Source: an uncultured Lachnospiraceae bacterium (GTDB taxonomy: Bacteria; Bacillota; Clostridia; Lachnospirales; Lachnospiraceae). Taken from it: a stretch of 35,672 nt of DNA. Made by a program: the position numbers and the translations under genes. This document shows positions 33,575-35,672 of the stretch, in pieces. Positions within the stretch are counted from its first letter, which is position 1; every line of letters starts with the position of its first letter. The DNA lies in NCBI GenBank assembly GCA_947627645.1, contig CANQWV010000010.1, positions 1-35,672 on the forward strand, written 5' to 3'. The notes beneath the pieces are model-generated. The model did not search any database. It saw nothing but the letters and a program-made list of their open reading frames with translations, and was not told the DNA's origin.

Positions 33575-33800
33575 GCCGTTTTTTTTCTTTCTAATGAATT
33601 TTTTACAGCCTGCCCTTTCTTTCGGGAGAGCTTTGCTCATGCCGTCTTTTTCTTTCTGCTGAATTTTTACAGCCTGCCCTTTCTTTTTGGAGAACGTTGC
33701 TCATGCCGTCTTTTTCTTTCTGCTGAATTTTTAACAGCCCGTCCTTTTGTTTTGAAAGGCTCTGCTCACGCCGCTTTCTTCTTTCGGAAAAATTTGAACA
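33571..33800. repeat. ~65-bp tandem array of the cbiM-stop/cbiQ-start junction
   Basis: tcatgccg units at 33571, 33637, 33701 and 33766 (66/64/65 bp) with ctttttctttctgctgaatttttacagcctgccctttc. On the minus strand each of three units reads ...aaaaacggcATGAG(C/T)AAa... Confidence 0.9.
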
Positions 33801-34764
33801 GATAGCACGCCCCGACGCAGACAGCCACGACGACCAGACAGCCGACGATGCCGGAGAATGTCGTCCCCAGCTCAGACTCTGAGCCTTTGAACGCGTAGTC
33901 CGGAAGCAGGGAGGTGAATTTCTGGACAGAGCCCGCCGCCTGATATACGCCGCCCTCCGCCGCCAGCTCCGTGGAACCGGTGATGCGCTCGATCGACCAT
34001 TCCAGTCCGTCCGGGAAGGAAGAAGCCACGAGCGAAAGCAGTCCGCCGATCAATGCAGCCGCAACCGCAAGGATCCCAAGCGTTTTCTTAAAGGAGAATC
34101 TGCCCTCCTTCTGCTCCGCCCGGGAAGCTCCGAACAGAAGCTCCGGCCTCGCCTCATGCACGAACACGAGCACTGCCGCCGTAATCAGGCCTTCCACGAA
34201 ACCAATCGCCAGATGAATCGGCTGCATCGTCGCCACAAACGTGGCAAACGGAAGCTCCGTGACGCCGGAAGCCATCGTCTCAAGCGTGACGGAAAACGCA
34301 CCGAGCTGCAGCGTCAGCACACAGCCCAGAATAGACGCCGCGATGATCTTCGCGCGCGACATTCCTTTCTTCATCATCGGCCTCCAGATCAGCAGCGCGC
34401 CGACAAAGCAACCGTAGAACGCCATGTTCCAGATATTGCAGCCGAGCGCCAGCAGTCCGCCGTCCGCGAAGAGCAGGCACTGGATCAGCAGCACCCCGAT
34501 CATCGTCAGAAAGCCCGCATAAGGACCGAGCAGCGCCGAGAGAAGCATACCGCCGCACAGATGGCCGCTGGAGCCTGTCCCCGGAATCGTAAAGTTGATC
34601 ATCTGCGTCGCGAATACGAACGCGCCCATAACCCCCATTAACGGAACCTTCTTCGTGTCCGTTTCCAACCGTACCTTTTTTACTGAATAGGCTGCCGCCG
34701 CCGCGGAGCAGACATACATCGTACCCGCCACTGCCGGTGCAACCAGAGCATCCGCCATATGCAT
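33766..34764 (-). CDS. cbiM: Cobalt transporter CbiM with C-terminal PDGLE/CbiN-like domain
   Basis: MHMADALVAPAVAGTMYVCSAAAAAYSVKKV...TIPGTGSSGHLCGGMLLSALLGPYAGFLTM; C-terminal SFPDGLEWSIERITG with a terminal TM. Confidence 0.93.
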   Translation of the reverse strand: MHMADALVAPAVAGTMYVCSAAAAAYSVKKVRLETDTKKVPLMGVMGAFVFATQMINFTIPGTGSSGHLCGGMLLSALLGPYAGFLTMIGVLLIQCLLFADGGLLALGCNIWNMAFYGCFVGALLIWRPMMKKGMSRAKIIAASILGCVLTLQLGAFSVTLETMASGVTELPFATFVATMQPIHLAIGFVEGLITAAVLVFVHEARPELLFGASRAEQKEGRFSFKKTLGILAVAAALIGGLLSLVASSFPDGLEWSIERITGSTELAAEGGVYQAAGSVQKFTSLLPDYAFKGSESELGTTFSGIVGCLVVVAVCVGACYLFKFFRKKKAA

Positions 34765-34850: not shown

Positions 34851-34879
34851 ATTATACAGGAGGAAAAATCAACCCGCAA
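34851..34879 (-). promoter_or_regulatory. Candidate promoter of cbiMQO
   Basis: On the minus strand TTGCGG-17-TATAAT; ~80 nt upstream of the cbiM ATG. A 14-bp palindrome CAGCTGCGCAGCTG (34793-34806) lies in the leader. Confidence 0.5.
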
Positions 34880-34904
34880 GCCTCCCCGGGGGTTATTTTT
34901 CGCG

Positions 34905-35043
34905 AAAGCAACGAGCCGTGCAAAGGTGTCGTTGACAAAACGGCTGCTTGCAGACGGCTTTGTCAGACGACAGCTTTGTAGGGCGACTGCCCGCGACCTC
35001 GAAAAGCCTCGGGCTTTTCGAGGTTCGCACGGCTCGTTGCTTT
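34905..35043. other. Cloverleaf-like inverted-repeat element (MITE/REP-like or structured RNA)
   Basis: Perfect 17-bp outer IR AAAGCAACGAGCCGTGC / GCACGGCTCGTTGCTTT encloses three hairpins: 34922-34977 (near-perfect), 34981-34992 (GGGC-gact-GCCC), 34996-35024 (13-bp perfect ACCTCGAAAAGCC-tcg-GGCTTTTCGAGGT). Confidence 0.85.
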
Positions 35044-35057
35044 GATAATTCCAAGCC

Positions 35058-35672
35058 TTACAATCCCTCTCCAACCAGCGGCTCTGGCCGCTCGCAGGAG
35101 GACTTCAGCTGCACGAACGCCCCACTCTTCCCACTTTCCAGCATGGCGTGCAGCACATCCAGCACGTGCACGGCGAGCTCCTTCGAGGCACGCGGCGCGC
35201 GCCCGTTCAGGGCGGCATCCACGAGATCCGCCGCGCCCAGTCCGCGGTTCTCATCGCCATAGGGATTCACCGGCGACAAAATCTCCGGCTCATCCGGCGT
35301 CCGGAAATTCTCTGGCTCACGCAGGAGCTTCACGTCCCCGCCGAACTGGTTCGGATCGGTCAGATATAGAATTCCCTTGGTTCCATAGATCGCGAAATAC
35401 GCCTGATCCGCCATCACATTGTCCGCATTCACCATGAACGTCCCGGCAACTCCACTCTTCAGCTGCAGCACCGCCGACACTTCGCTCTCGTTCGGCGTGT
35501 CCATGACCTGTCCGAACTCCGGGCTCTGCGGGTTGATGTTCACGTGCGTCGGGTAGGGCGCGCGCACCACGGCCGCGACCCGCTCCACCGGCCCCAGCAG
35601 GCTCACAAGAGCGGTGATGTAGTAGCCCGCGTAGTCATAGCAGATCCCGGCCCCCGGGATGCGGAGAAAAGA
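35058..35672 (-). CDS. Gfo/Idh/MocA-family oxidoreductase, C-terminal part (continues past window end)
   Basis: ICYDYAGYYITALVSLLGPVERVAAVVRAPYPTHVNI...ESEVSAVLQLKSGVAGTFMVNADNV...YGTKGILYLTDPNQFGGDVKLLRE. The frame is open to the window edge. Confidence 0.85.
   Translation of the reverse strand, partial: SFLRIPGAGICYDYAGYYITALVSLLGPVERVAAVVRAPYPTHVNINPQSPEFGQVMDTPNESEVSAVLQLKSGVAGTFMVNADNVMADQAYFAIYGTKGILYLTDPNQFGGDVKLLREPENFRTPDEPEILSPVNPYGDENRGLGAADLVDAALNGRAPRASKELAVHVLDVLHAMLESGKSGAFVQLKSSCERPEPLVGEGL

Follow-up and report, generated by a model that had tools for sequence, protein, structure and literature searches.

A multicopy cloverleaf repeat of Lachnospiraceae, apparently mobile and often placed at predicted transcription starts

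Closest in kind to the element described here are the BOX elements of Streptococcus pneumoniae, short multicopy interspersed repeats that fold if transcribed and have been proposed to be mobile (PMC3049150). BOX elements are modular, vary in the copy number of their inner module, are thought to affect genes with which they are co-transcribed, and are reported to be over-represented between convergent genes (PMC3049150). The cloverleaf element resembles BOX in kind, not in family; it too is multicopy, folded, modular and intergenic and has no known enzyme. It differs in host group and fold, and copies of its most common form, type A, lie in sense orientation, often at a fixed distance from a -10 box. 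With MITEs it shares small size, absence of an ORF, multiple copies and empty sites, and in part of the copies strong inverted ends. Unlike MITEs, it is not AT-rich, showed no consistent target duplication, has no parent IS that we could find, keeps its fold as a four-way junction and shows sense-strand asymmetry. REP/BIME sequences with RAYT are likewise palindromic intergenic repeats near stop codons or terminators, some of them clustered, whereas the cloverleaf is a much larger four-way junction with no associated Y1_Tnp. The structured leader RNAs of Rfam, T-boxes among them, share its 5′ UTR location and covariation, but the cloverleaf is apparently mobile and has neither an Rfam match nor a common downstream function.

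Small interspersed structured repeats are a known kind of element; what appears to be new is this particular family, with its fold and its lock to transcription starts. No family in Rfam 15 exceeded its gathering threshold, and the best sub-threshold matches of a permissive search were at chance level, so the strong known-family match that would have undercut the original prediction did not appear. We found no description of the family in the main texts of the open-access papers that we searched, and it may figure as a nameless candidate in large RNA screens (e.g., PMC8040213).

Fold of the element and its conservation

The DNA analyzed here, which we call the window, is a stretch of 35,672 nucleotides from an uncultured Lachnospiraceae bacterium. 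A covariance model places the element at 34901–35045 on the plus strand, 2 nt to 4 nt beyond the originally predicted 34905–35043. This multicopy element scores 153.7 bits in cmsearch with model R1, which was built from seven copies that include the window copy itself, and 135 bits with the broader model R2. Read from the sequence, a perfect 17-bp outer stem, in which AAAGCAACGAGCCGTGC (34905–34921) pairs with GCACGGCTCGTTGCTTT (35027–35043), encloses three arms. Arm 1 (34922–34977) is a long, variable stem with small internal loops and a CUUG apical loop (CTGCTTGCAG). Arm 2 (34981–34992) is the nearly invariant GGGC(GACT)GCCC. Arm 3 (34996–35024) is ACCTCGAAAAGCC(TCG)GGCTTTTCGAGGT, a 13-bp stem (34996–35008 with 35012–35024) and a 3-nt loop; relatives carry a CGAG/CGAG internal loop here. 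Helix borders at the junction can shift by two pairs in this copy, which has a GC content of 58%. The minimum free energy of the RNA from 34895 to 35053 is -89 kcal/mol compared with -51.1 ± 4.5 for 200 shuffles (z -8.5; 0/200 as low), and folding as DNA gives z -10.5. The sequence reading and the folding energy confirm the predicted four-way layout and coordinates.

Seven copies were aligned with MAFFT (alignment A1), and their consensus fold yielded R1. Double compensatory changes occur in 22 of 45 pairs in A1 and in 36 of 47 pairs in a 106-copy alignment (A3), in which 90.5% of cells hold standard pairs. The covariation score of A3 is 0.438, compared with 0.149 after shuffling and no more than 0.058 when partners are slid; the family-wide set A4 gives 0.495 compared with 0.154 after shuffling. 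Because fitting these alignments to the model favors pairs somewhat and the copies are related, the shuffle counts are not strict probabilities. Arm 2 is almost constant (99.8% of cells paired), while the outer stem, arm 1 and arm 3 covary: relatives keep outer-stem pairs by compensatory change (e.g., AAYGAG/CTCRTT), all arm 1 pairs show double changes, and 94% of arm 3 cells are paired. Covariation thus indicates that the four-way junction is maintained by selection, and the conservation of stems in relatives that the prediction had called for is seen in A1, A3 and A4.

Is the fold kept for RNA or for DNA? A G-U pair corresponds to an A-C mismatch on the opposite strand, so that an excess of G-U over A-C favors a sense-strand RNA. 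With the outermost pairs left out, G-U and A-C cells stand at 121:50 in A3 and 53:23 in A4, which is support, not proof, because the cells are non-independent and the alignments model-fitted. Type A copies also keep their loop and 5′-strand sequences, including copies whose 3′ partner is decayed. Both observations speak against the strongest competing explanation, namely that the element is purely selfish MITE/REP-like DNA whose fold serves single-stranded-DNA transposition and whose RNA has no role. The G-U excess, like the covariation, favors the structured RNA that the original prediction had listed among its options. Two other identities were dropped: an upstream ORF starting at the AUG of AAUGAGC, where types B and C have ACG and retain the pairing, and group II intron domain V, which GAGCCGUG...CACGGCUC resembles, because about 100 nt with three arms lie between these two sequences. 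No tRNA was found.

Copies, distribution and insertion at the window locus

A BLAST search of the element's own genome revealed six more long copies, some partial, with 72–87% identity; the single-copy status that would have spoken against a mobile hairpin was not encountered. R1 gives 21 matches in this genome, one being an opposite-strand self-match of the window copy, which leaves about 20 copies. Across the genus, R1 detects the element in 36 of 47 genomes, with up to 39 copies per genome. Of 397 genomes sampled in the family, R1 finds it in at least 202 (E ≤ 1e-5); with no more than seven candidates scored per genome, this figure is a lower bound. R2 matches 25 of 391 class genomes, 11 of which belong to other families, and 4 of 300 genomes in a phylum sample. 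All four of the latter belong to Lachnospiraceae, with no match outside the family, which indicates that R2 is specific. Phage, plasmid and viral collections, queried with a single copy or a single exact pattern, gave no match. A single 21-mer match in Paenibacillus was rejected as an element since the covariance model gives no match there. In other families of Clostridia, loci L336–L346 hold cloverleaf relatives with an RTRGGGC...GCCC arm and often a GCTTGC apical loop; several are located behind terminators and are more completely paired at their ends, and these relatives may represent an ancestral mobile form.

Most copies are of type A; the window copy belongs to the minority type B (AGCAACGAGCC). 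Several type B copies end in imperfect terminal repeats, TTCGTGTTTAG...CTAAACACGAA, and in type A the 3′ partner is often missing. One type B copy is flanked by GATA/GATA, most have no such duplication, and no consistent target-site duplication was seen among the copies. A third type, GCTACRAGCC, directly follows a TGA stop codon at four loci (L010, L190, L212 and L236). In the 5′ leaders at L084 (G044:C4), L085 (G046:C16), L086 (G041:C35) and L103 (G046:C8), the element or just its 3′ half is repeated in tandem. Four units, each about 147 bp long, precede mutS2 at L085, and later units in such arrays lack the conserved CGCGAAAGCAATGAG start or retain part of it. At L156, L158 and L159, remnants comprising only the first 20–50 bases of the element follow TATA and appear to be deletion derivatives.

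The window copy is antisense to both of its neighbors, cbiM (CbiM and PDGLE domains by Pfam; 33766–34764, minus strand) and the C-terminal part of a GFO/IDH/MocA-type oxidoreductase (Pfam; 35058–35672, minus strand), whose 3′ end points toward the element. Its left insertion edge (34879–34900, plus strand) consists of a weak terminator-like hairpin (34879–34894) and a T-run, ATTTTT, directly 5′ of the element. Poly-T is absent on the 3′ side, in agreement with the missing poly-U tail noted originally. A candidate cbiM promoter (34851–34879, minus strand) lies between the element and cbiM, where one had been predicted; it combines a -10 box TATAAT (34851–34856) with a weak -35 box TTGCGG (34874–34879) across a 17-nt spacer. 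This promoter was read by eye and is unlisted in a consensus scan that requires 4/6 matches in the -35 box. The promoter scan found no plus-strand promoter at this locus, and an Rfam search of the window found no cobalamin riboswitch. The palindrome CCTCCCCGGGG (34881–34891), beside the candidate promoter, is conserved whether or not a relative carries the element and is a candidate operator.

The orthologous intergenic region is cleanly empty in G036, G039 and G042 (e.g., CCTCCCCGGGGATATCCTTTTAAATTT in G042) and filled in G000 and G040, the latter with an orthologous copy. Comparison of filled and empty relatives resolved no target duplication. The empty sites likewise contain the candidate cbiM promoter, which places the insertion upstream of it. 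In G038 (L139), the locus holds a shorter element with an identical left edge and a different interior, which suggests internal replacement or deletion. The C-terminal residues and stop codon of the oxidoreductase (35058 region) differ between filled and empty relatives, so that the insertion region may have changed the end of the protein. The window copy, a type B insertion on the upstream side of the candidate cbiM promoter, is probably close to neutral; its local effect is probably small and would at most be to provide a folded 3′ end for the oxidoreductase mRNA.

Dispersal and empty sites support the predicted mobile hairpin, and the element is short (about 145 bp), multicopy and devoid of coding capacity, as MITEs are. 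The alternative first suggestion of an integration or recombination site found no support. Mobility and copy number equally suit the selfish-DNA explanation, as do the terminal repeats of type B and its unbiased orientation relative to the downstream gene (2:4). Type B copies, including that in the window, may indeed be ordinary selfish DNA.

Placement at promoters, terminators and genes

Most left flanks of the copies fall into one of three groups, defined by a -10 box, by a T-run, or by a stop codon that lies a few bases 5′ of the element. A -10 box separated from CGCGAAAG by exactly 3 nt precedes 50 of the 119 non-redundant copies. This 3-nt spacing occurs in 32 of the 92 copies from the genus and in 18 of the 27 from the family (non-redundant); any other spacing accounts for five or fewer. 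The consensus of the 50 copies reads TATG.TATAATGT. and then, across the boundary, CGCGAAAGCAATGAGC. A -35-like hexamer peaks at a distance of 17 nt (18 of the 50), and the joint promoter–element motif has 54 sites in the 47 genomes compared with none for a reversed-pattern control. A -10 box at exactly this distance puts the expected RNA start at the element's 5′ end. Among T-run flanks, 12 of 21 have a strong hairpin before the T-run. At seven loci (L022, L031, L068, L072, L073, L103 and L227), the element directly follows a terminator hairpin and precedes tyrS, leuA or a substrate-binding-protein gene; the leaders look T-box-like and are putative.

Insertion polymorphism extends to promoters: a matching promoter precedes mutS2 and an HgdC-type activator gene in relatives with and without the element, which indicates that the element was placed beside a pre-existing promoter. 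For type A, the downstream gene shares the strand of the element in 35 of 37 scorable genus cases and in all 24 scorable family cases (59:2). Under the selfish-DNA explanation, placement would reflect AT-rich or melted targets and the purging of harmful insertions. The base composition of the flank fits this, since the second-last base before the element is T in nearly all copies and TT occurs in 60 of 119, but the 59:2 orientation of type A does not. Taken with the G-U excess and the retained type A sequences, this makes purely selfish DNA a possible explanation that we consider unlikely.

Promoters directly upstream of many copies, together with the compact and closed fold, might suggest that the elements encode independent small RNA genes. 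No terminator was seen directly 3′ of the fold in the copies read, however, and the downstream gene is close and in the same sense, which renders this explanation very improbable. A vertically inherited cis-regulatory leader of one pathway, such as a riboswitch or ribosomal-protein leader, would account for the sense 5′ UTR location and the strong covariation. Yet the downstream genes (hisC, degV, mutS2, leuA, tyrS, valS, murI, ispF, purF and others, named by sequence inspection) are unrelated and reveal no consistent pathway, there are tens of copies per genome with tandem units, and orthologous loci occur with and without the element; such a leader can scarcely be credited. The original view that the element fits a cis riboswitch poorly therefore holds for the window copy and fails for the family, in which most copies are sense leaders, many of them at a predicted transcription start. 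Mobilization of a REP element by a RAYT (Y1_Tnp) transposase would suit palindromic intergenic repeats that follow stop codons or terminators with no clear target duplication, but is hardly credible given that Y1_Tnp was not found in five element-rich genomes (G000, G036, G040, G041 and G046, several of them incomplete assemblies) and that 0 of 30 Y1_Tnp loci carry the element.

The search for an autonomous partner found no long element between shared ends in the window or in the 47 genomes, which are draft assemblies. The window contains a DDE transposase gene (DUF772, DDE_Tnp_1_6; 170–1699), but the region around it does not share the ends of the element, which are not matched elsewhere in the window.

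A mobile repeat with a proposed leader role

We favor, with a probability of roughly 0.6, a family of non-autonomous mobile structured repeats of about 145 bp in Lachnospiraceae and some other Clostridia that mostly survive as 5′-end leaders. Its foundations, all read from genome sequence, are dispersal, presence or absence at orthologous sites, a covarying fold, the orientation of type A and the position at 5′ edges. Some enzyme would move the repeat. In type A, judging from promoter position, the mRNA would start at or within the first bases of the element, and the cloverleaf would form its 5′-terminal domain. In view of where most copies lie, namely at a predicted RNA start or immediately 3′ of a terminator or stop codon, an influence on the fate of the transcripts that contain them is probable. 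In Firmicutes, a folded mRNA 5′ end is generally taken to protect against RNase J. Folded repeats of other bacteria can be cut by RNase III or E (PMC3049150). By analogy, the 5′-terminal cloverleaf would most likely alter mRNA decay or processing, either by blocking 5′ exonuclease attack or by presenting an endonuclease site.

How the element comes to sit at these positions invites speculation. It might target the transcription complex, inserting strand-specifically into DNA melted by RNA polymerase at the -10 region of open promoters and at terminator T-runs. Such a mechanism would jointly explain the -10 spacing, the terminator position and the sense orientation, and would make the element a transposing 5′-end leader RNA. 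We regard it as a long shot; selection acting on random insertions is simpler.

The mammalian gut counts Lachnospiraceae among its dominant anaerobes. If the favored reading of a mobile leader repeat is correct, a folded mobile element sits at the 5′ ends of dozens of their housekeeping mRNAs and would constitute a family-wide layer that has so far gone unannotated. Expression could then change with each insertion, loss or tandem duplication. The finding also raises a testable question, namely how a mobile element gets placed to the base at transcription starts.
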